Source of the DNA: Microlunatus sagamiharensis | GTDB taxonomy: Bacteria; Actinomycetota; Actinomycetes; Propionibacteriales; Propionibacteriaceae | NCBI RefSeq assembly: GCF_900105785.1 | Contig: NZ_LT629799.1 | Coordinates: forward strand, 4,216,001 to 4,280,000 | Direction: 5' to 3' | Length of the DNA: 64,000 nt | Part shown: one piece after another, positions 15,004 through 46,600 of the stretch | Numbering within the stretch: the first letter of the stretch is position 1 | How the letters are laid out: each line of letters opens with the position of its first letter | Notes under the pieces: generated by a model | Told to the model about the DNA's origin: nothing | The model's database searches: none | What the model saw: only the letters and a program-made list of their open reading frames with translations | Program-made: the position numbers and the translations under genes

Positions 15004-17502
15004 GTGACGAGGTTCGGGGCGCGACGGGGCGCCGTGGTCGTGGTGACGCTCGTCGTCGCCGCCCTCCTCGTCGTCGGGCTCGTCGTGCTCGGGCTGCGCA
15101 CCCCGGGCGGGAGCGAGCCGGCGTCGCCGGTCGACCGTGGCACGTCGTCGACCGTGGCCGCCGACTCCTTCTCGCGCGAGGTGAAGGACGGCTGGGGCAC
15201 CGCCGACCAGGGCGGGGAGTGGCGCAGCACGGCCGGCGGCACCTTCTCGGTCGGTGACGGCTCGGGGTCGGTCGCCCTCGCGCCGGGAGCCGGCGCCCGC
15301 GTCAACCTCAGCACCGTGCAGCCGGTCGACCTCCGCGTCTCGGTCGACTTCACCGCCCCGGACCCCGCCGCGACCGGAGGAGGTGCGTACAGCGCCGTGG
15401 AGCTGCGGAGCAGCAGCGGGTTCTTCTACCGCTGCGTGCTGCGACTCTCCGGCGGCACGGCCTTCTTGTCCATCTCCCGTCAGGACGGCGGAGCGAAGCA
15501 GGTCCGCCCGCTGTCTCCGGAGCGCAAGGTCGCGACGAACGTCAAGGCGGGGCAGGTCTTCCACGTCGTCTGCCGCGCGACCGGGTCGGGACCGGTAGAG
15601 GTCGCGGCCGCTGCGGCCCGCGGTGCGGCGCCGCGGGAGTGGCAGGTCCGGGCCACCGACGACTCGGCCTCCGCGCTCGTCGCGGGCGGTCAGACGACCC
15701 TGTGGTCGTACCTGTCCGGGAGCTCTCGCGCGAGACAGGTCTTGCTCTACGACAACCTGGACGTCGTCGCGCTGGCGAAGGGCCAGACCGACGGCCCTCC
15801 GTCCGCTGCCGAATCGTCCCGTGCAGGGTCAACGTCCGGTTCTGCCCCGGCTACGGGGCCCGCGCCCTCGGCGCCCGGAGCGGCTACCGGTTTCGTGCGC
15901 CCAGCGCGGGTGGGGTCGACGAGCGTGGGCGGAACCCGGTACCCGGTTCCCGACGACGCGCTCGTCGTCGCCCCCCGCCCGTCCGGCGGCGTCTACACCA
16001 GCATCGCCCGAGCGGTCGCGGCCGCCCCGGACGGCGCCACCGTGGTGGTGCGCGAGGGCAGCTACCACGAGTCGCTCGTGCTGCCCCGGGAGAAGCGCGT
16101 CACCGTGCAGGCCTGGCCCGGCGAGGAGGTCTGGCTCGACGGCAGCAGCCGGGTCTCCGGCTGGCGCAAGGCCGGCAGCGCGTGGGTGGTCGACGGCTGG
16201 GAGCACCGCTTCGACGCGAGCCCCACCTACACCCAGGGGGCACCCGAGGACCCGCGCCCGGGGTGGACGTTCGTCGACCCGGCGCACCCGATGGCAGCCC
16301 ACCCCGACCAGCTGTGGCTCGACGGCACCGCTCAGCGCCAGGTCGGGTCGCGGGCCGAGGTCACCGGTGGCACCTTCTTCGTCGACCAGCCCGCGCGCCA
16401 GCTCGTCATGGGCTCCAGCCCCACCGGTCGCGCCGTCCGCGCGAGCACCCTGGCGACCGCGGTGACGGTGGTGGGCGAGGGCGACGTCCTGCGCGGCATC
16501 GGCGTCCGCCGCTACGCGACCTCGGTGTGGCAGCTCGGTGCCGTCCTGGTCGCAGCTCGCGACGTTCGCGTCACGGACCTCGTGACCCAGGACAACGCCA
16601 CCACGGGGCTCTCGGTGATCAACGACGACGTCACCCTCCAGAGGGTGACCGCTCAGGGCAACGGCCTGATGGGCATCCACGCCGACGGTGCCGACGGCCT
16701 GCGGGCGTCCGGCCTGCTCGTGAGTGACAACAACGTCGAGCGGTTCAACCGGGCACCTTCCGCAGGAGGCATGAAGGTGACGCAGTCCGCCGACGTCCGG
16801 TTGACCGGAAGTCGGTTCACCAAGAACCTCGGCCACGGTTTCTGGTGCGACATGAGCTGCACCGGGCTCCGGCTCAGCGGGTCGGAGCTCGACTCCAACA
16901 CCGGTTCGGGCGCGGTGGTCGAGATCTCCAGCGACATCGACGTGGTGGGCAACTCCCTTCGGCGCAACCGTTTGGACGGGCTCTGGCTGATCGACAGCGA
17001 CCGCGTCGATGTCGAGGGGAACGTGGTCCTCGACAACGGGCGCTCTGGCTTCCGGCTCGCGATGGACGAACGGTGGCGCACCTCCGACGGGGAGCTGCCA
17101 TGGCTTCTACGAGACATCAGCGTCCGCGCCAACGTGGTGCGGCAGCCCGACGCCGGGTGCGCGGTGTGCCTCGAGGACCAGACCGGCCTCCTGGACCCGT
17201 CGCACACGTCCGTGGCCCTGAGCGGGAACGTGTACCAGCGGAGCCGATCGAACGTGGTGCTCGCGCGGTGGGCGGGCCCGGACCGCGAGCCGATCGACAT
17301 CCCTGACCTACCGGCCTTCCGAGCCGTCGGGCAGGACGGCGGGAGCGTGGAGCTCGACGCCGGCGTCCCCGTCGTCGACGCGAGGGGCAGCGTCTCGAAG
17401 GAAGCCGCTGCCGCGTTGAGCCGAGCCGCGCGACGGGTCGGCGAGGGCGAACGCGAGCACCTGCAGGGCGGGTGCCCTGCGGCGGACCTGCAGAGCTGCT
17501 GA
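15004..17502 (+). CDS. Membrane-anchored right-handed beta-helix protein with GWG/GGxW module
   Basis: Surface protein of 832 aa. One N-terminal membrane anchor or uncleaved signal (about residues 9-31) is followed by the module starting DSFSREVKDGWGTADQGG (about 53-255), a Ser/Gly/Pro linker (about 265-305) and a pectate-lyase-like beta-helix (about 315-770). The helix part shares SPTYTQGAP, MAAHPDQLWLDG and APSAGGMKVT blocks with the proteins at 29981 and 34826. Possible roles are polymer lyase, epimerase or scaffold; no catalytic residues can be assigned. GTG start preceded by a purine-rich AAGGAAGG site. It lies 56 bp after the cytidylyltransferase and is probably co-transcribed. Confidence 0.8.
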   Translation: MTRFGARRGAVVVVTLVVAALLVVGLVVLGLRTPGGSEPASPVDRGTSSTVAADSFSREVKDGWGTADQGGEWRSTAGGTFSVGDGSGSVALAPGAGARVNLSTVQPVDLRVSVDFTAPDPAATGGGAYSAVELRSSSGFFYRCVLRLSGGTAFLSISRQDGGAKQVRPLSPERKVATNVKAGQVFHVVCRATGSGPVEVAAAAARGAAPREWQVRATDDSASALVAGGQTTLWSYLSGSSRARQVLLYDNLDVVALAKGQTDGPPSAAESSRAGSTSGSAPATGPAPSAPGAATGFVRPARVGSTSVGGTRYPVPDDALVVAPRPSGGVYTSIARAVAAAPDGATVVVREGSYHESLVLPREKRVTVQAWPGEEVWLDGSSRVSGWRKAGSAWVVDGWEHRFDASPTYTQGAPEDPRPGWTFVDPAHPMAAHPDQLWLDGTAQRQVGSRAEVTGGTFFVDQPARQLVMGSSPTGRAVRASTLATAVTVVGEGDVLRGIGVRRYATSVWQLGAVLVAARDVRVTDLVTQDNATTGLSVINDDVTLQRVTAQGNGLMGIHADGADGLRASGLLVSDNNVERFNRAPSAGGMKVTQSADVRLTGSRFTKNLGHGFWCDMSCTGLRLSGSELDSNTGSGAVVEISSDIDVVGNSLRRNRLDGLWLIDSDRVDVEGNVVLDNGRSGFRLAMDERWRTSDGELPWLLRDISVRANVVRQPDAGCAVCLEDQTGLLDPSHTSVALSGNVYQRSRSNVVLARWAGPDREPIDIPDLPAFRAVGQDGGSVELDAGVPVVDARGSVSKEAAAALSRAARRVGEGEREHLQGGCPAADLQSC

Positions 17503-17670
17503 GCTCCGGGTCGGACAGGTAGTCCGGCACCGGAATCTGCGGCGGTGACGCAGCCTCCCCGGCGAGCGTGAGCAGCGCCCCCTCGTGGCCGCCGGGACGA
17601 GCGCCGCGGAGCGTGGCTCACGTCTCGCGACGGAGATCCGCAGCGTGACGCGGCCCCGCCGCGCAGATGG

Positions 17671-17676
17671 GATCAT
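17671..17676 (+). promoter_or_regulatory. Putative -10 of leaderless flippase gene
   Basis: GATCAT, 6 nt before the GTG at 17683. The same arrangement (GATGAT, 6 nt) precedes the gene at 27783. No ribosome site is present, consistent with leaderless transcription. Confidence 0.35.
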
Positions 17677-17682
17677 CGAGCG

Positions 17683-19221
17683 GTGTCTGCTCCGCCCCCC
17701 GTGACCCCGCCTGACCCCGAGGTCGAGGTGATCACCGAGTCGATCACGTCGACCCCGGTCGACCGAGGTCAGCTCGGACGTCGGGCGGCGCGTGGAGCAC
17801 TGGTGACCGTCGGGGCGCAGGGCGTCAAGATCGTCCTCCAGGTCCTCGGCGTCGTCGTCCTCGCCCGGCTGCTGAGCCCGGGGGACTACGGGCTGGTCGC
17901 CATGGTGACGGCGATCATCGGCGTGGCGGAGATCTTCCGAGACTTCGGCCTCTCCTCGGCGGCGGTCCAGGCGAAGACGTTGTCGAAGGCGCAGCGCGAC
18001 AACCTCTTCTGGATCAACACCGGCGCCGGCGGGTTCCTCACGGTGGTCGTGTTCTTCGGGGCGCCCCTCGTTGCGCTGCTCTACGGCCGGGACGAGCTCG
18101 TCGGGCTCACCCAGGTCCTCGCGTTCATCTTCGTGCTCAACGGGATGGGCACGCAGTTCCGGGCGGACCTCGACCGGCGCATGAAGTTCGGCAACCTGGC
18201 TGTCGTCGACGTGGTGGCCCCTGCCCTGGCGCTCGGCGTAGCGATCGTGGCGGCGCTGGAAGGAGCCGGGTTCTGGGCACTGGCCGTCCAGCAGATCGCG
18301 ACGGCCGTCGTGCTGCTCACAGGGAACGCCATCTCGGCCGGGTGGCTGCCCGGGCGACCCAGGCGAGCGCCGATGAAGCCGCTCTTCAACTTCGGGTGGC
18401 AGCTCGCCGGGTCGCAGTTCATCGGCTACCTGGGCAACAACATCGACTCCCTGACCATCGGGCTCCGTTTCGACGCGACCGCCCTCGGGCTCTACAACCG
18501 AGCCTTCCAGCTGCTGATGACACCCCTGGGCCAGCTCCGGGCTCCGACGACGAAGGTCGCGCTCCCCGTCCTCTCCCGGCTGCGTGAGGACAAGTCGGCC
18601 TCCGACCGCTACATCCAACGTGGTCAGGCGGCCCTGGGACTCACCCTGGTGGCCGGCCTGGGACTGGTCATCGGCGCCGCCCAGCCCATCGCCGAGGTGT
18701 TCCTGGGGTCGCAGTGGACCGACGTGGTCCCCATCCTGCGGTTGCTGGCGGCGGCGGGCGCCTTCCAGTCGCTCGCGTACGTCGGCCTGTGGATCTACAT
18801 GTCGCACGGTCTGACGAAGGAGCTTCTGCAGTACACCCTCATCTCCGTCACGATCAAGGTGGCGTGCATCCTCACCGGCAGTCTCTGGGGCGTGGTCGGC
18901 GTCGCGTGGGGCTACGCGCTGGCTCCGGCGCTCGCCTGGCCGTTGTCGTTCTGGTGGCTGTCCCGCAAGTCCTTCGTGGACGTGAAGCCCCTGTTCATCG
19001 GGGCGGGACGGGTGATGCTCCTGACGACGCTCCTGGCGGCCGGATCATGGTGGGCGACGTGGCTGTCCCGCGACCTCCCGGCCTGGGCCCAGCTGCTGGT
19101 GGCGACGGGGGCTGCGGGCGTCGTCTACGCCCTCGTGGTCCTCGTGCTGGCTCCGTTGCGCCGAGACGTGCTCAGCGTGGTCGCCATCGCCCGTACCGCG
19201 TCTCGTCGCTCCGCCCGCTGA
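17683..19221 (+). CDS. wzx: Polysaccharide flippase (Wzx/oligosaccharide translocase family)
   Basis: Moves lipid-linked repeat units across the membrane. 512 aa with about 12-14 hydrophobic helices. The N-terminal block GVVVLARLLSPGDYGLVAMV and FRDFGLSSAAVQ is typical of WzxC/Polysacc_synt_3 proteins. FNFGWQLAGSQFIGYLGNNI and ALGLYNRAFQLLMTPLGQL are the matching middle blocks. A hydrophilic N-terminus of about 35 residues precedes the first helix. Convergent with the Wzz-type gene across a strong hairpin. Confidence 0.88.
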   Translation: MSAPPPVTPPDPEVEVITESITSTPVDRGQLGRRAARGALVTVGAQGVKIVLQVLGVVVLARLLSPGDYGLVAMVTAIIGVAEIFRDFGLSSAAVQAKTLSKAQRDNLFWINTGAGGFLTVVVFFGAPLVALLYGRDELVGLTQVLAFIFVLNGMGTQFRADLDRRMKFGNLAVVDVVAPALALGVAIVAALEGAGFWALAVQQIATAVVLLTGNAISAGWLPGRPRRAPMKPLFNFGWQLAGSQFIGYLGNNIDSLTIGLRFDATALGLYNRAFQLLMTPLGQLRAPTTKVALPVLSRLREDKSASDRYIQRGQAALGLTLVAGLGLVIGAAQPIAEVFLGSQWTDVVPILRLLAAAGAFQSLAYVGLWIYMSHGLTKELLQYTLISVTIKVACILTGSLWGVVGVAWGYALAPALAWPLSFWWLSRKSFVDVKPLFIGAGRVMLLTTLLAAGSWWATWLSRDLPAWAQLLVATGAAGVVYALVVLVLAPLRRDVLSVVAIARTASRRSAR

Positions 19222-19311: not shown

Positions 19312-20757
19312 TCAGGAGGCGGTCTGCTCGGCGGCCGGGCGGGGTTCCCAGTTCACGGCGGGGGCGACACGCTTTCCCGCCGGCTTGGCCTCAGGACCGG
19401 TACCGGTGCTCGGCAGGTCGCGGCCCTTCACGTCGTTGAGCACCACCCCGAGGACCCGCATCCCGGCCAGGTCGGCCGAGGAGAGAGCGGCGTCGAGCTG
19501 CTGCCGCTGAACCCTTCCGGCGCCGGCGACGACCAGGAAGCCGTCCACCAGGTCAGCGAGGTCGGTGGGATCGGCCGACGTCAGGATGGCGGGCGTGTCC
19601 AGGACGACGAACTCGTACTCGGCGCGCAGGCGCTGCAGCAGCTCGCCGAACTCCCGCGACCCGAGAACCGTGGTCGGGCTGGCCACGGGCGTCGCCGGGA
19701 TCACGGCCAGCCTTCCGTTGTGCTGGACCTCGGTCAGGACGGTGGGGTTGTCGAGCGCCGCGACGAGGCCGTCGTCCGCCTTGGTCCCGGTGAGACGGTC
19801 GACGATCGGGCTTCGCAGGTCGAGGTCGACGAGCACCGTGCGGTGCCCGATCTCGGCGAGCGCCGCTGCCAGGTTCGCGGCGACGGTCGAGCGGCCCTCG
19901 CGGCGCACGGCAGAGGTGACACCAAGGACAGTGCCGCTCGCGGCCGTCGTCTGGACCCGCTGCTCCACGGCGGCGCGGAGACGCCGGATCTCATCGGCGC
20001 TGAGGTGGGCCGCGGGGGAGGCTTCGGGGATCACCATCCCGCCACCGATCGCCTTCGTGGTCCGCAGGGTCCCGAGCAGGGGCTGGTCGGTGACCTCGGC
20101 AAGCGCAGCGGGCGTACGGACCTTCCGGTCGAGCCGGTCGGCGGCGAGCACCAGGACGCAGGCGACCAGCAGCCCGGCGAGCAGGCCCAGGGCCGCGTCC
20201 CGGCGCTTGTTCGGCGATGACTGCACGTTCGGCGCGGTCGCCGCCTGGATGGACTGCACGGCGACGAGCGCAGAACCGTCGGAGAGCTTGGGCGCGACGT
20301 TGCCGACCGACACCGAGAGCTGGCGGGCGATGGCGTTCGCGATGGTGGCCGCGCGAGCCGGGTCGGAGGAGTCCACGTCGATGGTCATGACGACCGTGTT
20401 CCGAGGCGTGGTGACCGTCACGCTGCGCGCCAGCTGGCGGGCGTTCACCCCGAGCCCGAGCGAGTCGATGACCGGGTTGAGCACGGCCGGCGAGGTGGCG
20501 AGCTCGCCGTAGGACGCCATCTGGTCCTGCAGGTAGTTGGACCCCAGCGAGAGCTCCGAGGCCGAGCGTCCGGTGGTGATGGCGAAGTACTCGGTCGCCG
20601 TCGCCGTGTACAGGGGCGTGGCGCGGGACGACACCGCGAATGCTGCCGCTCCACCGAGGAGCGTCAGGACGACGATGAAGACCGCGGCGCGGATCAGCAG
20701 CTTGCCGATGTCCCGGAGCGTCAGCTGCGCGCGTTCGTGGCTGGACTGGTCAGGCAT
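19312..20757 (-). CDS. wzz: Polysaccharide chain-length determinant with BY-kinase-like domain (Walker A Lys to Arg)
   Basis: 481 aa. Wzz domain with two membrane helices (about 19-45 and about 187-207) around an extracytoplasmic loop, then a cytoplasmic tyrosine-autokinase-like ATPase domain. Walker A reads TSAVRREGRSTVAANLA (about residues 281-297), so the conserved lysine of EGKST is an arginine (codon CGC). Walker A' is VLVDLDLRSP and Walker B FVVLDTPAI. No C-terminal tyrosine cluster is visible. The protein probably still sets chain length, but kinase activity is doubtful. The ATG overlaps the end of the polymerase gene by 8 bp. Confidence 0.87.
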   Translation of the reverse strand: MPDQSSHERAQLTLRDIGKLLIRAAVFIVVLTLLGGAAAFAVSSRATPLYTATATEYFAITTGRSASELSLGSNYLQDQMASYGELATSPAVLNPVIDSLGLGVNARQLARSVTVTTPRNTVVMTIDVDSSDPARAATIANAIARQLSVSVGNVAPKLSDGSALVAVQSIQAATAPNVQSSPNKRRDAALGLLAGLLVACVLVLAADRLDRKVRTPAALAEVTDQPLLGTLRTTKAIGGGMVIPEASPAAHLSADEIRRLRAAVEQRVQTTAASGTVLGVTSAVRREGRSTVAANLAAALAEIGHRTVLVDLDLRSPIVDRLTGTKADDGLVAALDNPTVLTEVQHNGRLAVIPATPVASPTTVLGSREFGELLQRLRAEYEFVVLDTPAILTSADPTDLADLVDGFLVVAGAGRVQRQQLDAALSSADLAGMRVLGVVLNDVKGRDLPSTGTGPEAKPAGKRVAPAVNWEPRPAAEQTAS

Positions 20758-22045
20758 GAGCTCTTTCTTCTCTCGCTACAGGGACGTGATGGTCGAGATC
20801 GGCACCCGGGCCCGGGCGAGCGGTGGCGCTCTTCAGCGCCTGGCTGCCCACCGCCAGGCCGACGGTGAACCAGGCGACCGCGGCGTACTGGGTGATGAAG
20901 GCGACCGTGAGGAGGGCAGGGATCTGCGCGACCGCGACGATGGTGGCGATGGAGGCGCGGCCTCGCAGGATCGTGACGACACCACCGATCGCGACCAGGA
21001 GGACGACTCCCAGCACGACCCAGCCGAAGATCAGCCCGATCAGGAGCAGTGCGTTGTCGACCGACCCGAACTCGCCCACGGAGACCTCGCTCGTTGTCGA
21101 GACCGAGAAGCTCCCGCTCAGGCCCAGCGGCTTCATCGTCCTGACGAGCTGGAGCAGGTCCGCGCGGTAGAGCGCGCTGCCTTCCGCCTCGTTCGAGGTG
21201 TCGAACACCCCGATGATCGGGCCGGCGGCGAGAGCCGCTGTCGCGGAGAGGAGCACGAGGACGACCACGCGGTACGTGCGGCTCAGCGGTCCTCGCAGGA
21301 ACAGGCAGACGAGCACGATCGACACGAGCGCCGTGAGCATCGCGCTGCGGCTGAAGCTCACCACGACGCCCGCCAGGCACAGGCCGGCCAGAGCCGTCTT
21401 GAGCGCCGGCCGGAAGCGGCTGCCGAGCACGAGGCAGGCTGCGACCGCGAGGGTGATCCCGAGCGCGATGGCATGGCCGAAGGCACCCTCGGCCCGGATG
21501 ACGTCGCCTCGAGCCTGCAACGAGCCCCAGCGGGCGAAGGTCGCGGAGTTGTTGCCGAGGAAGGTGATGAAGAGGTTCCGCCCGGTGGCGAACTCGACCA
21601 GCGCGACCACGCTGGCTGCGGCCCCGAAGACGCCGAAGGCTCCGTAGATCCAGGCCTGGTCGACCACGTGGACGATCAGGCGGCCGAGCGCGTACGCGAC
21701 CCCCCAGACGACCAGGAGGTCGAAGGTCGCGCTCCGAGTCGTCAGCTTGAGGGCGTAGAGACTGACGACGGCGACCACCACGCCGAGGAGCACGACGTCG
21801 GCCACCGTCGGTCGGATGGCGAGAGGCGTCGGCAGCAGGCTGAGCGTGGCCAGGAGCCCGACGATGACGAACGCCGGGAAGTAGGCGAACACGGTCTGCC
21901 CGATCCACACCGGGATGAAGAAGATCCCGATGAGCCACGCCACCATCGCCACCTTCGGCGAACGACGCAGGAAGGCGAAGAGCAGGATCAGCAGCATGCC
22001 GCCGACCACGGCGAGGAGGAGGCCGTCGAGGCTGAGCTCACCCAT
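20750..22045 (-). CDS. wzy: O-antigen polymerase/ligase-like membrane protein
   Basis: Predicted polymerase of the repeat units, 431 aa with about 10-12 hydrophobic helices and a long extracytoplasmic loop (FATGRNLFITFLGN, EGAFGHAIALGITLAVAACL). VVSFSRSAMLTALVSIVL is the SxSR-type helix common in O-antigen ligase/polymerase (Wzy_C) proteins. The ATG at 22045 has GGAAGGGG about 9 nt upstream. In one unit with the Wzz-type gene. Wzy versus ligase cannot be settled by sequence, but the neighbouring flippase and chain-length gene favour Wzy. Confidence 0.78.
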   Translation of the reverse strand: MGELSLDGLLLAVVGGMLLILLFAFLRRSPKVAMVAWLIGIFFIPVWIGQTVFAYFPAFVIVGLLATLSLLPTPLAIRPTVADVVLLGVVVAVVSLYALKLTTRSATFDLLVVWGVAYALGRLIVHVVDQAWIYGAFGVFGAAASVVALVEFATGRNLFITFLGNNSATFARWGSLQARGDVIRAEGAFGHAIALGITLAVAACLVLGSRFRPALKTALAGLCLAGVVVSFSRSAMLTALVSIVLVCLFLRGPLSRTYRVVVLVLLSATAALAAGPIIGVFDTSNEAEGSALYRADLLQLVRTMKPLGLSGSFSVSTTSEVSVGEFGSVDNALLLIGLIFGWVVLGVVLLVAIGGVVTILRGRASIATIVAVAQIPALLTVAFITQYAAVAWFTVGLAVGSQALKSATARPGPGADLDHHVPVAREERAHA

Positions 22046-22345
22046 GGCGCACTGCCCCTTCCGGACGGACGTCGAACCCCGTGGTCCGGGCCTGCGCGGC
22101 AGTGGTCGAGCCCGGCTGGCTCGTGGTCGTCGCTGGGCGCTTGCGAGCCGTTCAGGGCCACACAGTAGTTCAAGCGGGCCCCGGAGAGGCGAATTCAGCG
22201 GTTCCCCCGGGGCCGGTCCCCGTGCCACGTAGTTACGCGCTTTGGCTGAAGACTCGTCGAACGTCACGTATATTTTTCACCGAGTCTCCGGGGATGGGGC
22301 TCGGGGGAGGCCCCAGGGGTGGGGCCATTAGTTTTCGGGGAACAC
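22046..22345. promoter_or_regulatory. Divergent regulatory region between wzy and the large modular protein
   Basis: 300 bp without a gene. It holds an 8-bp perfect inverted repeat GGCCCCGG/CCGGGGCC (22177-22184 and 22207-22214) and an AT-rich TATATT (22269-22274), the best -10 for the plus gene. In the leader, GGCCCC-AGGGGT-GGGGCC (22309-22326) is followed by ATTAGTTTT, which looks like a terminator stem. The upstream GGGGC (22296-22300) can pair with the same GCCCC (22310-22314), so two exclusive folds are possible. ATG follows 20 nt later. Confidence 0.5.
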
Positions 22346-25300
22346 ATGACTGTCACGTCATCTCGTCCTGCCCGCTTGCTCGCGGGCCTGGTCTCGTCGG
22401 CGCTGCTGGCCGCAGGCCTCGTCGTCGCCGGAGGCGCCGCGCCAGCCGCCGCCGCCACCGCCGCGACCGATCCGACCTACAACGTGGTCGACCGGCCGGA
22501 CGCCGGCGTCACCGCCGACGCACTGCCCACGGTGCAGATCGACGGCGTCGTCTGGGACACCGCGATCGCCGGGGACACCGTCTACGCGGGCGGCCAGTTC
22601 GCCAACGCGCGTCCCGCCGGCTCGGCCGCAGGCACCAACCAGACCCCGCGCAGCAACCTGCTGTCCTTCAACATCCGCACGGGCGTGATGGACGCCGGCT
22701 TCGCGCCGACGGTGAACGGGCGCATCCGGGCCATGGCGCTGTCGCCTGACAAGTCGCGCCTCTACATCGCCGGCGCCTTCACCGAGGTGAACGGCAAGAC
22801 GCGCAGCCGGGTCGCCGCCTTCAACACCGCGGACGGCTCGCTCGTCTCGACCTTCGCCCCGACCATGGGCTCCGACGTCTTCTCGGTCGTCGTCACCAAG
22901 TCGGCGGTCTACCTGGGCGGCTGGTTCACCAGCGCCAACGGGGTGGCCCGCAACCGTCTCGCCGCGGTCGACCCCACGACCGGGGCCACGCTCGGTTGGG
23001 CGCCGACGGCTGACTCGACGGTCAACACCATGGCGCTCAGCCCCGACGGCACCCGCGTGATCGTCGGAGGCATCTTCAGCAAGCTCAACGGCGCGACCGC
23101 CCCCGGCATCGGCTCGATCGACGCGGCGAACGGCAGCTCGTACCCGTTCGCGGTCAACCAGACCGTGCAGAACTACGGGAACTCGGCAGGCATCTACTCG
23201 GTCAAGACCGACAGCACCAACGTGTACGCGTCCGCCTACTGGTTCGGCGGGACCGGCAACTTCGAGGGCCAGCTCGTCGCCGACCCGTACACGGGGGCGA
23301 TCAAGTCCATGGCCGACTGCCACGGCGACACCTACGACTCCACGGTGTCCAACGGCATCCTCTACACCGTCAGCCACCACCACGACTGCAGCAACATCAA
23401 CGCCTTCCCCGACACGAACCCACGTAACCGCTGGAAGCGGGCGAACGCCTTCACGCTCGACGCCACGACGACGGTCGGGCACAACACGGCGGGCGGTTAC
23501 TACGACTTCTACGGCCAGCCGGCCCCGTCGGTGATCAACTGGTTCCCCGACGTCGCGGCCGGCTCCTACACCGGCCAGGCGCAGGGCGGCTGGACCACGG
23601 AGTCGACGAACGAGTACGTCGTCGAGGGCGGTGAGTTCCCCTCGGTGAACAACGTCGCGCAGCAGGGCCTCGTCCGGTTCGCGATCCCGAGCCTGGCGAC
23701 GAACAAGCAGGGCCCGCGCGTCAGCGCGACCGACTCCGCCCCCAAGCTCCGCGGGCTGTCGGGCACCAGCGTCCGCGTCTCCTGGCCGTCCAACTGGGAC
23801 CGCGACGACATGTCGCTGACCTACAAGCTCTACCGCTCCGACAAGGGCTCGGCGCCGGTCTTCACGCAGACGAAGCCGGCAGAGTTCTGGAACCTCCCGA
23901 CCCAGGTCTTCACCGACACCGGGCTCACGCCGGGCGCGACCTACGGCTACTACGTCACCGCGACCGACCCCAAGGGCAACACCCTCAAGAGCGCGACGAC
24001 CACCATCACGACCGGTACCGACGTCGTCGACCAGAGCGCGTACGCCCAGGCCGTCGTGAACGACGGGGCCAACCACTACTGGCGCCTCGACGAGAAGGCC
24101 GGCCAGACCGTGAGCACCGACTGGGCGGGCGGCAACGACCTCCTGCTCGGGAGCGGCGTGGCCAACGGCACCGCGGGTGCCGTGAACGGCTCCCCGGACA
24201 CCGCGGCCACCTTCGACGGGACCGCCAACGGCACCGCCGGCCAGACCTCCAGCGAGGTCGCCCCGCAGGTCTTCAGCGCGGAGGCGTGGTTCAAGACCAC
24301 GTCGACCTCCGGCGGCAAGATCCTCGGCTTCGGCGACAGCCAGCTGGGCAACAGCGGCGGCTACGACCGGCACGTGTACCTCGACAACGCCGGTCACCTG
24401 ACCTTCGGCGTCTACCCGGGCTCCGTGCGCAGCGTCACCAGCGGCGGGACCTACAACGACGGGGCCTGGCACCAGGTCGTGGTGTCGCTCTCCGACGGGG
24501 GCATGAAGCTCTACGTCGACGGCCTCCTGGAGGGCGCCGACCAGGGGACCACGAGCGGCCAGGCCTTCAACGGCTACTGGCGCGTGGGCGGTGACAACCT
24601 CGGCGGCTGGCCGTCGACGGGGTCGAGCCAGAACGTCGCCGGCGCGATCGACGACGTGTCGACCTACCCGACGGCGCTGACCGCGGCGCAGGTGCGCAAC
24701 CATTACACCTCGACCGGTCGGACGCTGAACCTGCCGTCCTCGCCCGACGACGCGTACGGCCAGAAGGTCTACGCCGACAACCCGACGCTGTTCTGGCGGC
24801 TCAACGAGCAGCCGGGCTCGACGACCGTCGCCGACTCCTCGCAGGGGCGCACCCCGGGCGTGGCCTCGAACGGCGTGACCTTCGGCGCGGCAACCACGGT
24901 GGCGCCGGGCACCGCCGGGGCCTTCGACGGCAACGACGACACGCTCGCCTCCTCGCGGCAGTTCACCAACCCGCGCAGCTACTCCGAGGAGGTCTGGTTC
25001 AACACCACGACCACCCGCGGCGGCAAGCTCATCGGGTTCGGTGACCTGCAGTCCGGGGGCTCGAACAACTACGACCGGCACGTCTACATGGAGAACTCGG
25101 GCCAGCTGACCTTCGGGGTGTGGACCGGGCAGACGAACCTCGTCACCTCCCCGAAGTCGTACAACGACGGTGCCTGGCACCAGATGGTGGCGACGCAGAA
25201 CACCACCGACGGCATGAAGCTCTACGTCGACGGTGCCCTGGTCGGGACCAACGGCCAGACCGACGCCCAGAGCTACACCGGCTACTGGCGGGTGGGTGGC

Positions 25301-27782: not shown

Positions 27783-28412
27783 GTGACGACACCTCTCCGC
27801 GCCCTGGGTCCTGCCGTCCTGCTGGCGGTCGTGATCACCGGCGGCCTCGCGGGCTGCAGCGGCGACCCGGACCCGGCGGCCAGCTCGCCGGCGCCGCAGC
27901 CGACGCTGTCCGGCTCGACGCCCGGCACGGCCCCGCTGCCCCCGGCAGCCACCACCCCGGTCCCTCCGCCCACCGCCGGGAGCACCTCGCAGACCGTCGC
28001 GCCCCGCCCGGTCCGCAGCAAGAAGCCGGTCAAGATCGACCAGACGGCCCAGCCGGAGCAGGACGTCACCGTCACCGTCCCCGAGCTGAAGAGCGTCGAG
28101 GCCAAGGCGCAGGGGCCGGGCGAGGTCTCCGGGCCCGCCCTCGAGGTGCACGTCGAGGTGCAGAACGCCACCGACCGCGAGCTCGACCTGTCCGGGGCCG
28201 CCGTCACCCTCACCGCCGCCGACGACAGCCCGGGCCAGATCATGACGGGCCCGCCGACGGCCCTCTTCCCGGCCTCCGTCGCCGCCGGGGCCAAGGCGGA
28301 GGGTGTCTTCGTCTTCACGGTCGCCAAGGACCAGCGCGACCCGGTGCGCGTCGACGTCCTCGTCGACCCGGACCACGACGTCGTCGCCTTCCGCGGGCGC
28401 GCTCCCCGCTGA
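27783..28412 (+). CDS. Lipoprotein with DUF4352-like C-terminal domain
   Basis: 209 aa. Lipoprotein signal with lipobox LAGC (cysteine near residue 25), a Pro/Ser/Thr-rich linker (to about residue 85) and an Ig-like beta-sandwich resembling the DUF4352/Telomere-like family (ALEVHVEVQNATDRELDLSG). It is anchored outside the membrane. The same fold and layout are seen in the lipoprotein at 48709, which also neighbours a large PKD protein. The GTG start has GATGAT 6 nt upstream and no ribosome site, suggesting a leaderless message. Role unknown; attachment or export of the adjacent secreted protein is a guess. Confidence 0.72.
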   Translation: MTTPLRALGPAVLLAVVITGGLAGCSGDPDPAASSPAPQPTLSGSTPGTAPLPPAATTPVPPPTAGSTSQTVAPRPVRSKKPVKIDQTAQPEQDVTVTVPELKSVEAKAQGPGEVSGPALEVHVEVQNATDRELDLSGAAVTLTAADDSPGQIMTGPPTALFPASVAAGAKAEGVFVFTVAKDQRDPVRVDVLVDPDHDVVAFRGRAPR

Positions 28413-33924: not shown

Positions 33925-33993
33925 CACCAGGCTCTCCAGCACTTCGTGAGGCGCCTGGGTCCTGCCATCGTCAGCACCGGCCCTTGCCCGTAG

Positions 33994-38365: not shown

Positions 38366-39591
38366 CGCCCGGCCTTGCGGGCGGTCCGGACGCGACGGAA
38401 GCTCGCGCGGCCGGTCCGTAGCGTCTCACGCCAGTCCCGCGCGGCGAAGCGCGTCAGCCCGAAGCCCACGTAGCGGGGCACGGTGCGTCCCGCTGCCCGC
38501 GCGCCCAGCAGCCGGCCGGCCAGGGTCCGCCGGCGCGAGGTCTGCAGCGGCTGGACCCCGGCCACGGCGTCCGGCTCCAGCGGCTGCCCGACGAGCACAC
38601 CGGCGGCGAAGGCCTCGACGAGCAGGTCGTGGCCGCGACGGGTGCGGGCGATCAGGGCGCTGCAGCCGTCGTTCTCGACGAAGACCGGGTAGCCGCGCTC
38701 GTCGGTGTCCCAGAAGTCGGCGGCGCTGATGTCGCTGCTCTCGCCGACGCCGTCGGGGCAGATCTTGCAGCGCCACTGCGTCGCGCGGCCGAGGTGCGCT
38801 CCCCAGGACTCCTCGTAGCTCGTGGAGACGCGACGCCCGTCGGCGGCGACGGCGGTGAAGGAACCGGGCCACCCGCGGCCGCGGTACCAGAGGTCGTCGA
38901 GCCCGGTGCCCTCGGGCAGGCCGAGGTCGGCCACCAACGTGTCGGTGGCCTGCTGGCTGGGGGTGCCGGCGCAGAAGAAGGACAGCAGCAGCGGCTCCTG
39001 CTCGGGGCCGGCGCCCTCCAGGTCGAGCAGCTGGCGGGCGGCGGTCGCCTCGCACGGCTTGCCCACGACCGCCCCGTCCGGGGCCAGGGCACCCGGGCCG
39101 AGGACCGCGACCGGCCCGTAGCGCGAGCCCGCGCTGGCGAGGGCCTCCTCGCGGGTGGTCAGGGTGACGGGCACGGTGCGGCGCGGCTCCTCGCGGTCAG
39201 TCCGCGCGGTGCGTACCGCGCTCACCCGCCCCGTCTCGACCAGCCAGGTGCTCAGGGCCGTGAGCGTGCCGCCGCTGCTGCCGCGGTGACGCAGCTCGTC
39301 ATCCGCCGCCCAGGCGCGCCAGCAGCTGACGACCGGGCCGAGCAGCGGGTGCCGCGTCGAGCCCTCCGGCGTGCGCGCCTCGGTGCGGCGTCCCGGGCAG
39401 ACCCGGGCGAAGCGGGCGTCCGCCCCCGCCGGTGTGGGGCCCGCGCCCTCACGCACGGGGCGACGGAACCCGTCGTCCTGCAGCCGCATGGAGAGGCCGG
39501 GGTCGAGCAGGGTGCACGCCCCGCACCCGCTGCAGTTGCCCTCCGCGACGACCTTCCTGACGGCTCGGTCGAGCCGGGCCTGCTCGCTCAC
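38362..39591 (-). CDS. FrhB/FdhB-like iron-sulfur protein of polysaccharide loci
   Basis: 409 aa. The N-terminal ferredoxin-like cysteines CSGCGACTLLDPG are followed by the coenzyme F420 hydrogenase/dehydrogenase beta-subunit N and C domains (HRGSSGGTLTALSTWL, GKPCEATAARQLLD, CKICPDGVGESSDISAADFW). Such proteins recur next to polysaccharide pyruvyl transferases, as here, but their reaction is not established; a reductive or flavin-dependent step is inference. GTGA overlaps join it to both neighbours, so the three proteins are made together. Confidence 0.8.
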   Translation of the reverse strand: MSEQARLDRAVRKVVAEGNCSGCGACTLLDPGLSMRLQDDGFRRPVREGAGPTPAGADARFARVCPGRRTEARTPEGSTRHPLLGPVVSCWRAWAADDELRHRGSSGGTLTALSTWLVETGRVSAVRTARTDREEPRRTVPVTLTTREEALASAGSRYGPVAVLGPGALAPDGAVVGKPCEATAARQLLDLEGAGPEQEPLLLSFFCAGTPSQQATDTLVADLGLPEGTGLDDLWYRGRGWPGSFTAVAADGRRVSTSYEESWGAHLGRATQWRCKICPDGVGESSDISAADFWDTDERGYPVFVENDGCSALIARTRRGHDLLVEAFAAGVLVGQPLEPDAVAGVQPLQTSRRRTLAGRLLGARAAGRTVPRYVGFGLTRFAARDWRETLRTGRASFRRVRTARKAGR

Positions 39592-40691
39592 GCGGCGGTG
39601 CCCGGGCCGCCGAACCGCGTACGCAGGGCGGCGGCCGCCTCGTCGAGCCGTGCCCCGGCGCGGGCGGCGACCTCGGCGGCCTCGCCGCGCAGGTCCTCGC
39701 TGCGCCGGGCGACGTCGACGACGGTGGTCGGGACGTCCTCGCGGTCCTCGCGCAGGTCGACCACGTGCGACCAGCCGAGGTCGCCCAGCAGCGGGGCGAA
39801 CTTGCGCGAGTACGCCAGCGGCAGGGCCGGGGTGCCGACCGAGAGCGCGTTCAGGCAGGCGTGCATGCGCGAGCCGACGACGAGGTTGGCGCCCGCGAGC
39901 ACCTCGCGGACGTCGTCGAGCGAGCGGGGACGGTAGACCTCGGCGTCCGGCGCGTGCGTCGCGGCGAACTCCTCGACGGCCGGGACGTCGTCGTCGGAGT
40001 TGTCGGCCGGGAGCACGTGGGGCAGCAGCGTCACGGTGCGGCCGGCGGCCACGAGCGCGTCGTGCACCTGTGCGACGGTGCGACGGTAGCGCGCGTGGTC
40101 GACGTGCGGGTTGGGCTGCCAGAGCAGGCCCGAGACGTTCAGCACCACGTCGCGCCGGGCGTCGCGCGCGGGGACGTCGAGGGCGAAGACGACGTCGCTG
40201 GTGAGCAGGTCGACCGGGCGGCCCAGGCCGGCGGCCGCCTCGGCGCTCGTCGAGTCGCGCGCCATCACCAGCGCCGCCGTCCGCAGCGACCGACGGGCCA
40301 TCGTCTTCGCGCGCCGGCCGCCGAACGGGCCGATCGTCTGCGGGGTCAGCACCACCGGCACGCCGGCGCGGTAGGCGAGCTCGGTGGCGAGCGTCATCGA
40401 GGTGAGGCGTGGGAGGCCGTAGATGTCGGCGAAGGAGTCACCCGCCCGGGTGTCCAGGACGAGGTCGAAGCCCGCGAACCACCGGTTCAGCCCGACCCGG
40501 CGCGTCACGGCCTCCTTGAGCAGGTCGGTCGTGGAACCCAGCCGGACGGGCGCGGTCCGGGAGCCGTAGTTGGAGAACACGAACTCCGCGTCGGGCCAGA
40601 CCCGGCGCGCGAGCGCGGCCGTGCCCGCCCCCAGCACGCGGACCCCGAGGTTGGGCGAGCGGTCGTCGGCCCAGAGGACCAGGATCTTCAT
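39588..40691 (-). CDS. Polysaccharide pyruvyl transferase family protein
   Basis: 367 aa. Transfers pyruvate from phosphoenolpyruvate to a sugar, forming a ketal that adds negative charge. Family features: LGVRVLGAGTAAL at the start, LDTRAGDSFADIYG (the G-D-S/F block), PVVLTPQTIGPF, the donor-side VVGSRMHACLNALSVGTPAL and YSRKFAPLLGDLG. ATG at 40691 with an AAGGAC site upstream. First gene of the unit 40691-37418. Confidence 0.87.
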   Translation of the reverse strand: MKILVLWADDRSPNLGVRVLGAGTAALARRVWPDAEFVFSNYGSRTAPVRLGSTTDLLKEAVTRRVGLNRWFAGFDLVLDTRAGDSFADIYGLPRLTSMTLATELAYRAGVPVVLTPQTIGPFGGRRAKTMARRSLRTAALVMARDSTSAEAAAGLGRPVDLLTSDVVFALDVPARDARRDVVLNVSGLLWQPNPHVDHARYRRTVAQVHDALVAAGRTVTLLPHVLPADNSDDDVPAVEEFAATHAPDAEVYRPRSLDDVREVLAGANLVVGSRMHACLNALSVGTPALPLAYSRKFAPLLGDLGWSHVVDLREDREDVPTTVVDVARRSEDLRGEAAEVAARAGARLDEAAAALRTRFGGPGTAA

Positions 40692-40837
40692 CGTGCGTCG
40701 TCCTTGCGGTTGCGGGTGCGGCGCCGTGCGACGTGCCGCCGGGGAGCAGGGCCGGACGACTGCCACGGCGTCCAGGCTCTCATCCTCTCATCAGGTGCTC
40801 CCGCGACCGGCCTCGTCGGCGGCCGGCGGGACCGGGA

Positions 40838-43399
40838 TCACCCGCTGGTGGGACGGACCAGCAGCTTGTCCACCGACAGCGTCAGCGGGGCGTTGGTGAC
40901 GCCGGCCGACGCGTAGCCGCCGACGGCGATGCCGGTCCTGGTCTGCAGCGCGGCCGTGGCGTCGGTGGCGCTTGCCTGCCAGGTGGTGGGCTCGGGGCTT
41001 CCCTCGGCCCAGACCCGGGCCCGGACGAGCGTGGGTGCCGCGCCCACCGCCTGGGTGCGGATCGTCCAGCGCTTGCCGGCGGTCAGCGTCTCGGGCAGCA
41101 CGAAGGCCTTGAGGTCGGTCTGGGCGTTCCCCTGCACCCGCACCAGGTAGAGGACCATCTTGCCGCCGGCCGGGGCGTACACCTTGGCGAAGTAGCCGTC
41201 GGCGACGCTGCCGCGGGGGACCGCGCGCACGAAGACGCTGCTGGCTGCGGCTGCCTTGTCGACGGCGAAGGTGAGCTGCAGGTCGGCGTCGCGCGAGCCG
41301 GTCGCGAGCTGGGCGTAGGGACCTGACCCGGCCCCGAGCCGGATCAACCCGGCCCCGCCCGCGGTGGAGAGCGAGCCGGCCGACGGCGTCGTCCAGGTCC
41401 CGCCCAGGTCGGCGGAGCCCCAGCCGGAAGCTGTGGCGCGCTCGAAGTCGTCCCGGGCCAGCGGCTTCGGCTCGCCCGTCACGACGACGGTCTGCCGGAC
41501 GCTCGCGGTGGTGCCGTCGTCGTCGGTGACGGTCAGCGTGACCGGATAGCTGCCGGCGGCCGCGTAGGTGTGGCTGGTCGTCTCGCCGCTGCCGGTCCGG
41601 CCGTCGCCGAAGGCCCACGACCAGGACACGACCCTGCCGTCCTCGTCGCTGGACGACGCGCCCGAGAAGCTGACGGCGAGCCGGTCGGCGACGTTGGTGA
41701 AGCGGGCGACGGGCGCGAAGTTCGTGCCGACGCCCACCCGCGGCGACACGGGGCTCTCGAGCAGGTTGCCGAACGGGTCGCTCACCACGACCTGGTAGGT
41801 GTGCTCGCCGTTCGGCACGCCGAGGTCGGTGACCGAGAGCGTGGGGACCGACCAGAAGGAGCTGTCCGCCGTCCTCGTGGCGACGAGCTTCTCCGCCGAC
41901 GTGCCGCGGTCGCGGTAGACGCGGTAGGTGAGGCGCTGGTTGTCCTCGTCCCAGGCCGAGCCGAACTCGACCTGCACCGAGCTGCCGGTGGCGGTCGCCG
42001 TGGTGGGGGGAGCGGTGGTCCGCACGGGCGCGGTCCCGTCGTAGCGCGGGCCCGACCGGTTCGGTGCGACGGGGGCCGTGGCGTAGCGGGTCAGACCCTG
42101 CTGCGGCTTGCCGGCGACCGTCGGGAACTCGCCCCCGAGCGCGACGTAGCCCGCCGCGCTGGTGATGCTCCACACCGACTGGTACTGCCCGCTCGCGAGG
42201 CCGATCCCGAGCGAGGGGTACCAGTGCAGCTGAGCAGCCGCTGGCTGGCCCTTGAAGCTCCGCCCCACGGCGTTCGGGCCGCCGTTGGTGCCCATCGGCA
42301 CGGTGGTGTACGCCGTCCCGTACTGCCACCGCGTGCGCGGGCTGGTGTCGGTGAAGCCGCCGATCATCGTGCAGTCGTGCGGGTGCCCGGCCACGTACAG
42401 CACAGGCCCGACGGGCTCGACGTCGTAGGTGTCGCCGAGGCAGTCGACCAGCCAGCGGATCGACCCGTCGGCCGGGTCGAGGGCGAAGCTGCCCTCGAAG
42501 GTGCCGCCCGCGCCGAAGGCGAACCCGCCGCCGTAGACGAGCGTGCCGTCGGTGGTGAGGGTGTCGATCGCGCCCTGGTTGTAGTCCTTGATCACCGTGT
42601 TGGCGCGCCAGGTGAGCGTCGCGCCCGTGGTCGCGTCCAGGGCGCCCATGCCGTTCACGGTGGTCCCGTTGAGGGTCGAGAACTGCCCGCCCGCGACCAC
42701 CTTCGTCCGGTCCGGCGTCATGGTGAGGGCCCAGGTGTAGCCGCCGGAGGCCACCGGCGCCCAGCTCGTCAGGGCCCCGGTGCCGGCCGAGAAGGAGGCG
42801 AGGAAGTAGCGACGCTCGTCGTCCGGTCCGGCACCGGTGAACCCGCCGCCCGCGTACAGGGTGCTGTTGGTCGCGGTCAGCGCCTTGACCTGGCCGTTCA
42901 CCGAGGCGGCGAAACCCGGGACGAGCGCTCCGCTGCGGGTGTCGAAGGCCGCGAGGTGCGGGCGCGAGACGCCGTCGACGGTGGTGAAGTCGCCGCCGAC
43001 GTAGACGCGGCTGCCGTCCGGGGACGCGGTGATCGCGAGGCCCTGGGCGTCGAGGGTGTGGTTGAACGAGGCGATTCGCTGGCCGGTGGTGATGTCGTAG
43101 GCGATGAGGTGCGCGACGTCGATCTCGGTGGGTCCGCCCTTCCACATGCCCGGCGGGCGGGCCTTGGTGAAGCTGCCCGTCGCGTAGACGGTGGTGCCGA
43201 CGGTGACCTGGCTCCAGACGACGCCGGTCACCTGCCAGGTGGGCAGCGGGTCGGCCGACACGGTGGCCGGCCGGTCCGTCGCGGGCGGGACCGTGTCCGC
43301 CCAGGCCGCGTCGCCGCTCACCGGGACCGTGAGGGCTGCGCCCACGACCGCCGTGACGAGCGCGAGCACGCTCCAACGCCATGTGTGCTTGGTCCGCAC
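40838..43399 (-). CDS. Secreted propeller/FN3/PKD protein with GWG/GGxW module
   Basis: 853 aa. Signal peptide to about residue 34, DUF5122-like propeller (about 40-440; VYVGGDFTTVDGVSRPHLAA), FN3-like domain (about 450-555; LTYRVYRDRGTSAEKL), one PKD (about 560-645; WSWAFGDGRTGSG) and the module (about 650-853; DDFERATASGWGSADLGG). It is a shorter relative of the protein at 43640, lacking LamG domains and four PKDs. GTG start with GGGGGGA upstream. The first propeller blades are nearly identical at DNA level to those of 43640. Confidence 0.85.
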   Translation of the reverse strand: MRTKHTWRWSVLALVTAVVGAALTVPVSGDAAWADTVPPATDRPATVSADPLPTWQVTGVVWSQVTVGTTVYATGSFTKARPPGMWKGGPTEIDVAHLIAYDITTGQRIASFNHTLDAQGLAITASPDGSRVYVGGDFTTVDGVSRPHLAAFDTRSGALVPGFAASVNGQVKALTATNSTLYAGGGFTGAGPDDERRYFLASFSAGTGALTSWAPVASGGYTWALTMTPDRTKVVAGGQFSTLNGTTVNGMGALDATTGATLTWRANTVIKDYNQGAIDTLTTDGTLVYGGGFAFGAGGTFEGSFALDPADGSIRWLVDCLGDTYDVEPVGPVLYVAGHPHDCTMIGGFTDTSPRTRWQYGTAYTTVPMGTNGGPNAVGRSFKGQPAAAQLHWYPSLGIGLASGQYQSVWSITSAAGYVALGGEFPTVAGKPQQGLTRYATAPVAPNRSGPRYDGTAPVRTTAPPTTATATGSSVQVEFGSAWDEDNQRLTYRVYRDRGTSAEKLVATRTADSSFWSVPTLSVTDLGVPNGEHTYQVVVSDPFGNLLESPVSPRVGVGTNFAPVARFTNVADRLAVSFSGASSSDEDGRVVSWSWAFGDGRTGSGETTSHTYAAAGSYPVTLTVTDDDGTTASVRQTVVVTGEPKPLARDDFERATASGWGSADLGGTWTTPSAGSLSTAGGAGLIRLGAGSGPYAQLATGSRDADLQLTFAVDKAAAASSVFVRAVPRGSVADGYFAKVYAPAGGKMVLYLVRVQGNAQTDLKAFVLPETLTAGKRWTIRTQAVGAAPTLVRARVWAEGSPEPTTWQASATDATAALQTRTGIAVGGYASAGVTNAPLTLSVDKLLVRPTSG
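42973..43260 (-). repeat. Near-identical propeller segment shared with 48181-48468
   Basis: 288 bp of about 95% identity at a 5,208-bp offset, including perfect runs of 93 bp (42983-43075) and 74 bp (43077-43150). The flanking parts of the two genes are much less alike, so this looks like gene conversion rather than simple duplication. Confidence 0.75.
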
Positions 43400-43611: not shown

Positions 43612-43639
43612 GTGCTGCGTACGGGTGCGGTGCCGGAGG

Positions 43640-46600
43640 TCAGTTCCCGGTCGGCCGCGCCGAGAGCGAGCTCACCGACAGCACGAACGGCGTGGTCGCG
43701 CTCGCCGAGAGGTACGACCGCACGGCCAGGCCGCCGGGGGCCTGCAGGGCGCTGGTGGTGTCCGTACCGGTCAGCAGCCAGGCGCTCGGCTCGGTCGTCG
43801 ACGCGGCCCACACCTTCGCCTGGAGCTGGGTGGTCCCGGTGCCCCAGGCCTGCACCCGCAGGGAGTACGTGGTCTGCGGTGCAACGGTCCCGGAGAGGAC
43901 CTTCGGGGAGCCCACCGTCGTCTCCGTGCCGCCCACCACCTTGGTCAGGTAGACCGTCGCCGTCCCGCTCGCCGACACGAGCACCTTCGCCCCGTAGCCG
44001 TTGGTCTCGTCGCCACGAACGATCGTGCGGAGGTAGGCCGAGCCCACGTCCGGCAGCCGGTCGAAGGCGAAGCCGAGGCGCAGGTCGGTGTCGGTCGAGC
44101 TGACCCCGCGCAGGCGCGCCGTCGGCTGCGAGGAGGGCGACGTCTTGATCGTGCCCGCCCCGTTCGCCGTGGCGAAGAGCGACGTCGATCCGGAGAGGGT
44201 CCACGCCCCGCCGCGGTCGGCCGTGCCCCAGCCACCGGTGGTCGTCCGGTTGAAGGCGTCGCGCGCGAGCACCCCGGCGATCGTCACGTCCCTGCTGGTC
44301 GAGGTGCTCGCACCCCGGTCGTCGGTGACGGTCAGCGTGACGGTGTAGGTGCCGTTCGCGGCGTACGTGTGCTGGACGGTGCGCCCGGAGTCGGTCGAGC
44401 CGTCCCCGAGGTCCCACGCGTACGACGCGACCGTGCCGTCCGTGTCGGCCGAGCCCGAGCCGTCGAGCGCGACGGTGGTGTCGTCGGTCGTCGCGGTGAA
44501 CGCGGCGGTCGGGGCCACGTTGCCGGCCCGGGCGGTGACGGACACCGTCTTCGTGCCGGTGGCGCCCGCGTCGTCGGTCACCGTGAGGCGCACCGTGTAG
44601 GTGCCCGCGGCGGCGTAGGTGTGGCTCGGGTCGGCGTCGGTGGAGGAGGTGCCGTCGCCGAAGTCCCACGCCCAGCCGACGACGGTGCCGTCGGCGTCGG
44701 TCGAGCGGGAGCCCTTGAAGGCCAGGGTCAGCGCGTCGCCGCTGCTGGTGACCACCGCGGTCGGGGCCGCGTTGGCGACGGAGACCGAGGTGGTGGCGCT
44801 GCCCGTCGCACCCTTGTCGTCGGTCACGGTGAGCGTGACCGTGTACGAGCCGGGCGCGGCGTAGGTGTGGCTCGGGCTGACGTCGGCGCTGCCGGTGCCG
44901 TCGCCGAAGCTCCACGCGTACGCGACCACGGTGCCGTCCGGGTCGCTGGAGCCCGACCCGTCGAAGGCGACCTTGGTCCCCGTCGCGCTCGAGGCGATCG
45001 AGGCGAGCGGGTCCTTCGTCTTCGCGACGGTCACCGTCTGGCTCGTGGTGGCGGTCCCGCCGGCGTTGTCGGTCACGGTCAGCGTGACGGTGTAGGTGCC
45101 GTCGGCGGCGTAGGCGTGGCTCGCCGTCGCTCCGGTGCCCGTGCTGCCGTCGCCGAAGCTCCAGCTCCAGGCTGCGACGGTGCCGTCGTCGTCGCGCGAG
45201 GCGGACCCGTCGGTCGTCACCGTGCGCTGGTCCGAGGCCAGCGAGAAGGCCGCGGTCGGTGCACCGTTGGCCACGGTCACGACCTGCGACGCGGCCGCGG
45301 TCGCGCCCTGGTCGTCGGTGACGGTCAGCACGACGGTGTAGGAGCCCGCCTTCGGGAACGTGTGCGTGACCTGCGCCCCGGTGCTCGTCGTGCCGTCGCC
45401 CCAGCTCCAGCCGTAGCCGGTGACCGAGCCGTCGGTGTCGCTGGATCCGGCGCCGCTGAAGGAGGCCTTCAGCGAGCCGGCGTCGACGGTGAAGCTCGCC
45501 GTCGGCGGGGTGTTGGCGACGGTGCCGCCGCCCAGGCGGTAGCGGTTCTTGACCTCGGTGAGGCCGAGCGCCCGCGGGTAGACGGCGACGTCGTCGATCC
45601 AGCCGTTGAAGGCGCTGGACGTGCTGCCGCTCCAGACCCGGTCGTAGCCGACGCGCCAGTAGCCCGTGAGGGTGCTGGAGGCGTTGACCGCGTTGGCGGC
45701 CACCTGCACGCCGTCGACGTAGAGCTGCATCCCGGTGGGCGACTGGGCCGTGACGACGTAGTGCCACTTGCCGTCGTTGTAGGACTTCGGCGAGTCGAGC
45801 GCGACCTGCGTGGTGCCGTTCAGCGTGGCGAAGCGCACCTTGCCCGCGTCGGTCATGGTCAGGTTGCGGTCGACCGTGGCGCTGAAACCGGTGGCCGAGC
45901 TGCCGAGGCCGAGGAGCTTGCCGCCCTGGCTGCCCGTGCTCTTGAACCACAGCTCCTGGCTGTACGAGGCGTCCGGGGCGGCGTTGCCCGCCGACCCGAC
46001 GGTCGCGTTGCCGGTGCCGAACTTGACGCTCGTCCCGCCGGTCGGGTTGAGCGCCCCCGGCTGGCCGAAGGTGGGCGTGCCGGAGTAGAGCCCCCGGTTG
46101 TCGTTGGCCGTGGTGTCGGCGGCGACGGGGCCCGCGGCCTCACCGAGGCGCCAGTAGAAGTTCGGCTTGTTCTTCCACACGTCGGCGCCGTAGCCGTCCG
46201 CCGGTGCGGCGGAGGGCACGGTCGAGGTGCGGCCGCTCTTGGTGAAGTGGTCGTTGACCTGCGCCTGGCTGAGGACCAGCGGGTAGGTCGCGACGTCGTC
46301 GACCGTGCCGTTCAGGTAACCGGTGGTCGGGGCGTTCGTCCAGGTGGACGACGCGACCGAGTCGCCGCCGACGCGCCAGTAGCCCGAGACGGCCTGCCCG
46401 CCGGTCGCACCCCGGTCGCGGCCGATCAGGCGGCCGTCGAGGTAGAGGGCCATGCCGTCGGGCCCGACCGAGGCGTCGAACTGGTGCCACTGGCCGTCGT
46501 TGTACGCCGTCGGGGTGGTGATCGTCTTGGCCGCGCCCTGGTAGACGCCGAAGGTCACCTTGCCGGACGGGCCGAGGTAGAGGTGGCGGTCGTAGTTGCT

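Follow-up and report, generated by a model that had tools for sequence, protein, structure and literature searches.

Carbohydrate-binding modules of family CBM66 bind fructan ends, and the CBM66 of a xanthanase binds lyase-treated xanthan and not levan or inulin (excerpts of PMC11002231). According to excerpts of another paper, the Douge domains of mycobacteriophage (BppU and central fibre) bind mycobacterial glycans, lipoarabinomannan fragments (PMC13033339). In Vibrio cholerae, Bap1 and RbmC have in common a propeller that binds the polymer, and a lyase, RbmB, is encoded in the cluster (excerpts of PMC10102183 and PMC11637428). Here we describe a domain of about 207 residues, called the module below, that occurs in seven copies in six large proteins of an exopolysaccharide locus of the soil bacterium Microlunatus sagamiharensis. 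The window, that is the whole stretch of DNA analysed, comprises 64,000 nucleotides (NZ_LT629799.1, positions 4,216,001 to 4,280,000). Judging from sequence profiles and a structural model, the module is a concanavalin A (ConA)-like jelly roll, distantly homologous to CBM66 and forming an uncatalogued family of its own. Its likely role is to attach matrix proteins, and enzymes that modify the polymer, to sugar polymers.

Compared with CBM66 (levanase SacC of Bacillus subtilis; the PF06439 neighbourhood), the module is longer (about 207 versus 165 residues) and 17% identical, and its D-x-F-x-R/GWG-x-A start is extra. The glycan-binding domains of Douge and TM4 gp23, of which the Douge domains appear to have the same fold, show no sequence-profile match to the module; they belong to phages, whereas the module occurs mainly in bacterial exported proteins. 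The locus has a plan similar to the vps/rbm cluster of V. cholerae, with exopolysaccharide synthesis genes around the matrix genes here too, but one module is common to scaffolds and enzymes, and the scaffolds carry LamG and PKD domains. The module was not found described in the literature searched, which left most subscription journals outside and is no proof that it is unpublished; nor was a matrix locus of this plan found there.

The module and its distant relatives

All seven copies lie within 15154-44269. Each was left out in turn and searched for with a hidden Markov model (HMM) built from the remaining copies, the two copies of the 22346 protein being left out together. In the list, proteins are named by the first coordinate of their genes and E-values are those of the held-out HMMs.

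15154..15777, + strand: module M1, N-terminal in the 15004 protein (E 7.2e-27)
26204..26827, + strand: module M2a, C-terminal in the 22346 protein (whose open reading frame has E 2.3e-35)
27122..27739, + strand: module M2b, 22346 protein, identical in sequence to M2a
30098..30715, + strand: module M3, N-terminal in the 29981 protein (E 8.3e-46)
34946..35557, + strand: module M4, N-terminal in the 34826 protein (E 9.8e-46; a separate domain in the model)
40841..41461, - strand: module M5, C-terminal in the 40838 protein (E 1.2e-37)
43646..44269, - strand: module M6, C-terminal in the 43640 protein (E 3.8e-43)

The held-out HMMs recovered every copy in a six-frame translation of the window (E 7.2e-27 to 8.3e-46). 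At E up to 10 they matched no module-free open reading frame of the window and no reversed decoy, and the organism's own genome (4,405,185 bases, one contig) held no module beyond these seven at E up to 0.01. Identity between non-identical copies was 26-50%. The motifs D-x-F-x-R and GG-x-W and the final Y were present in all seven copies; GWG-x-A was found in five and was replaced by RWGTA in both 22346 copies. The basic strand K/R-V-W was strict in four copies (both of 22346, 40838 and 43640), read KTY in 29981 and RTW in 34826, and was missing from 15004, and L followed the final Y in four of the seven. Thus an earlier note on this DNA, made from the letters alone, was borne out in its count of seven copies in six proteins, their span and their N- or C-terminal placement, and in most of its signature, whereas the K/R-V-W strand that it gave to all copies holds strictly for four.

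The AlphaFold2 model of M6 (predicted local distance difference test, pLDDT, 97.6) has the ConA-like jelly roll fold that the note had guessed, with a beta-sandwich of the CBM66 type; this superfold is shared with LamG and the legume lectins. Alignment of the module profile to CBM66 by hhalign gave 97.2% over 163 columns, in a single comparison whose E-value was not scaled to a database. The closest relatives by profile and by fold are sugar-binding. The search for a well-described family of unrelated function, which the note had proposed as a check, matched none. Over the module in the six proteins, neither Pfam nor NCBIfam gave a match above cut-off, and when Pfam was run on 67 members of the family, no Pfam family among the best 25 of 33 matched more than four of them, with a best E of 0.002. 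The PF06439 model itself had no match in the genome despite its seven modules, nor was it among the Pfam matches listed for the 67 members. Searches of solved structures by sequence gave no relative; the rows returned, mainly nanobodies and TOM40, were judged to be chance.

Among the PHROGs families, phrog_24476, which is named phosphodiesterase, matched 55 of the 67 members and two of six in a smaller set, while a minor-tail family matched two of the 67 and a tail-spike family one. We take phrog_24476 to be a phage protein family carrying the module, its name being no evidence for an activity of the module. The name may mislead the annotation of proteins that hold the module alone.

Partner domains and the surrounding locus

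The six proteins combine the module with other domains in two ways.

15004..17502, + strand: exported or membrane-anchored protein with module, linker and beta-helix (PF13229, 1.2e-16; N-terminal hydrophobic segment)
22346..27748, + strand: secreted protein with propeller-like region, two LamG, four PKD and two modules (PF17164, PF13385 and PF18911 above cut-off; PF12768 below)
29981..32464, + strand: secreted protein with module, linker and beta-helix (PF13229, 1.1e-13)
34826..37390, + strand: secreted protein with module, disordered linker and a beta-helix resembling epimerases, lyases and GH120 (Pfam, model, weak profiles)
40838..43399, - strand: secreted protein with propeller-like region, one PKD and one module (PF12768, 1e-07; PF18911)
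43640..48634, - strand: secreted protein with propeller-like region, two LamG, five PKD and one module (PF12768, 4e-08; PF13385, PF18911; the start is a chosen one)

In 15004, 29981 and 34826 the module is N-terminal and is followed by a right-handed beta-helix. In 22346, 40838 and 43640 the order is a region called propeller-like from the Pfam Rax2/DUF5122 profiles only, then PKD, then one or two C-terminal modules, with LamG in two of the three. The note had called all six secreted; this stood for five, and 15004 starts with a segment like a membrane anchor and has no obvious cleavable signal peptide. By fold and by weak profile matches the beta-helix parts are like polysaccharide-acting enzymes, namely AlgE-type epimerases, PL6/PL9 lyases and the GH120 xylosidase XylC. 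The beta-helix proteins look like polysaccharide-modifying enzymes, and their activity could be that of a lyase, an epimerase or a hydrolase, or none.

Both modules of 22346 lie inside an exact 878-bp tandem repeat of the DNA (25943-26820 and 26861-27738), each unit of which holds one PKD domain and one module. Among ten tandem module pairs within one protein, four were at least 99% identical in DNA (besides 22346, those in G008, G120 (C3) and G108) and six were 57-75% identical. Because some pairs are near-identical and others are not, the sequences suggest recurrent duplication or conversion of tandem modules.

The genes around the module genes include the following.

17683..19221, + strand: Wzx-type flippase (PF13440, 1e-71)
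19312..20757, - strand: Wzz-type chain-length protein with a P-loop NTPase region, tyrosine-kinase-like (PF02706, PF01656)
20750..22267, - strand: multi-membrane protein with 13 transmembrane-like segments and no Pfam match; possibly the Wzy polymerase
27783..28412, + strand: small lipoprotein with a lipobox and no Pfam match, recurring beside module genes
32818..33942, - strand: membrane acyltransferase (PF01757, 3.5e-22)
37418..38365, - strand: GT2-type glycosyltransferase (PF13632, 5.3e-09)
38362..39591, - strand: FrhB-like protein (PF04432, 4.5e-22)
39588..40766, - strand: polysaccharide pyruvyl transferase (PF04230, 4.2e-25)
53394..55241, - strand: exopolysaccharide-initiating sugar transferase (PF02397, 2.2e-69)

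A further multi-membrane protein is encoded at 28485. Two module-free metallophosphoesterase genes (50433-51956 and 52115-53290) are also part of this locus; in proteins from other places, fusions of the module with metallophosphatases are frequent. A 300-residue protein at 12312-13214, with no Pfam match, has highly similar counterparts in the G002, G007 and G003 loci (490-558 bits).

Relatives in other genomes and in phages

In the genus, the module was found in 13 of 20 genomes at 44 places, which formed 23 clusters when grouped at 40 kilobases (kb). Eleven clusters, one each in 11 genomes, lay within 30 kb of a PF02397 transferase, compared to 0.68 expected, and none of 100,000 simulated draws reached 11; the simulation placed clusters at random and ignored relatedness, and two of the genomes (G002 and G007) are close kin. 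The same locus is present in these two, where it holds four module genes, the counterparts of 15004, 22346, 29981 and 43640, and by comparison it seems that the window doubled its beta-helix gene and its last propeller gene.

Of 19 module regions that were fetched, 15 held at least two homologues of the window's exopolysaccharide-type genes and three held none; in three genomes these regions are neighbouring halves of one locus, and they were partly picked near PF02397. None of 19 control regions, hand-picked elsewhere in the same genomes, held any such homologue. Two additional regions that were read, G009 and G005:C16, also contain exopolysaccharide-type genes. At the level of the class, the reading of surroundings covered G108 and G060, where Wzz-like and glycosyltransferase homologues lie around the module, and G035, where none do; it left aside G026, G059, G081 and G106. 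In public sequences, at least two exopolysaccharide-type homologues were found in 51 of 76 loci and none in 19, and 47 held a homologue of the flippase, Wzz, the pyruvyl transferase, the initiating transferase or the 20750 protein. These 76 loci were drawn from 348 relatives, of which the best 80 were used; copies of the propeller type, like M6, are over-represented and some contigs are short, and since the queries were the window's own genes, other polymer pathways were missed. Homologues of the 27783 lipoprotein were present in 44 of the 76 public loci and 13 of the 19 module regions, and this protein is possibly an anchor or assembly partner. PKD had been considered as an independent control of linkage and was set aside, since inspection showed most of its places to fall in the module proteins themselves. 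Within the genus the association with exopolysaccharide loci is strong, and outside the genus it is often seen. It recurs in other actinobacteria, and the outcome that the note had named as refuting, homologues with no link to polysaccharide loci, did not arise.

A tree of 44 modules was built, omitting M2b and matches under 150 residues. In this tree, the nine copies from beta-helix proteins formed one group across genomes, apart from the propeller copies (support 91/93; none of 500 shuffles was as low). Therefore the partner architecture, and not the genome, separates the main lines.

Among 63 proteins matched with M5, the Pfam partners were the Rax2 propeller (17), metallophosphatase (13), PF04185 (four) and acid phosphatase (two), and more rarely a beta-helix (two), GH5 (one) and GH88 (one). 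One module was present in 39 of these proteins, two in 22, five in one and six in one. Two proteins, P0002 and P0003, are almost wholly tandem modules, six and five respectively. Eight module proteins from unlinked places comprised two metallophosphatases, one acid phosphatase, one PF04185 protein and four without Pfam match, with a single metallophosphatase and a single Pfam-less protein coming from outside the genus; two additional unlinked copies in the genus are beta-helix proteins.

The module was also found in 16 phage records (13 distinct names), of which 15 are named Streptomyces phages. They are annotated as minor tail protein (six), virion structural protein (two), carbohydrate-binding protein (one) or hypothetical protein (six), and one is unannotated. 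Three phage regions were read: in one the module gene directly follows the tape-measure gene, in another a single gene separates the two, and no tape-measure label was seen in the third. In IMG/VR, thirty contigs (L103-L132) encode relatives of the module. One reference sequence of the analysis, L031, was cut short at a stop codon.

Candidate ligands and the matrix

Computation gives the family, its fold, its distant homology, its linkage and its occurrence in phages; sugar binding, the identity of the ligand and the enzyme activity are what we infer from them. The reading we favour, with somewhat better than even confidence, is that the module is a carbohydrate-binding module that docks matrix proteins and enzymes on an extracellular polysaccharide, most simply the polymer of the locus. 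The matrix proteins (propeller, LamG, PKD) would be docked via one or two C-terminal modules and would act as scaffolds that retain or cross-link the polymer. The beta-helix proteins would be docked via the N-terminal module on a flexible linker, and their epimerase-, lyase- or GH-like helix would trim or modify the polymer. The ligand would most simply be what the adjoining flippase, Wzz, glycosyltransferase and pyruvyl-transferase genes make. A pyruvate-specific ligand is unlikely to be the general rule, since only five of the 76 public loci list a pyruvyl transferase homologue.

Several observations weigh against this reading. Twelve of the 23 clusters in the genus lie more than 30 kb from PF02397. 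At the level of the class, the module was found in at least 11 of 118 genomes, and of the 10 others with the module, PF02397 lay within 30 kb in at least three (G120, G033 and G114); these counts are lower bounds, with at most 26 candidates scored per genome. Phosphoesterase-type proteins made up 19 of the 63 matched with M5, and four phosphoesterase-type copies were in regions without homologues of the locus's exopolysaccharide genes or were unlinked to PF02397. The helix-type and propeller-type modules split long ago, and one ligand is not implied. The jelly roll, the uncatalogued family and the exopolysaccharide link of the note's interpretation have stood, whereas its common ligand, the polymer of the locus, is still a supposition in view of the two deep subfamilies and of the phosphoesterase and phage relatives.

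The ligand could be another surface glycan, because phosphoesterases encoded away from such loci carry relatives, as do tail genes of phages. The module would then bind a conserved glycan of the actinobacterial envelope and hold exported proteins at the surface, while their other domains act on the exopolysaccharide. We consider this the less likely reading. The module is carried by metallophosphatase, acid phosphatase and PF04185 proteins, and phages, which need a target on the host surface, carry it in tail genes; the Douge domains bind lipoarabinomannan fragments (PMC13033339). In the V. cholerae excerpts cited above, it is the adhesin propeller itself, and not the lectin-type part, that binds the polymer; by analogy the module may bind another target, which is for this reason a serious rival. 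On the other hand, all copies in the organism's own genome are in the exopolysaccharide locus, and a strong enrichment at such loci is seen among relatives; neither would be required of a general surface tether.

It is still less probable, about one chance in ten in our estimate, that the module has no sugar ligand and serves a structural or protein-protein role, being linked to the locus through its propeller and beta-helix partners. The fold alone is no proof of function, as ConA-like folds include non-lectins; the conserved residues could be structural, and some proteins string five or six modules in tandem. However, the nearest relatives by profile and fold bind sugars, the partners include GH5, GH88 and beta-helix domains, and phage tails carry the module. 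Finally, it is highly improbable that we are dealing with an ordinary LamG, or with some other catalogued domain missed by the libraries: the superfold is shared with LamG, but hhalign gave 0.2% against the window's four LamG domains, no Laminin_G stretch fell on the module in the Pfam scan, and the Pfam, NCBIfam and PF06439 searches described above assigned it to no family.

On the carbohydrate-binding reading, what we describe is a module of known kind whose family is uncatalogued and which sits in a matrix locus. We suggest, tentatively and with less than even confidence, that it marks a widespread actinobacterial biofilm-matrix system with a vps/rbm-like plan built from other parts, in which one polymer-recognition module would serve in cross-linking scaffolds and in remodelling beta-helix enzymes, tandem copies would be reset by recombination, and tailed phages would dock with the same module. 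The domain, left blank by the libraries searched, now has a definable and searchable family, and large surface proteins of no assigned function are tied to exopolysaccharide synthesis in many actinobacteria. The module may be a ready-made probe for these polymers, and it would hint at how some actinophages recognize their hosts if its phage versions have the same glycans as ligands.
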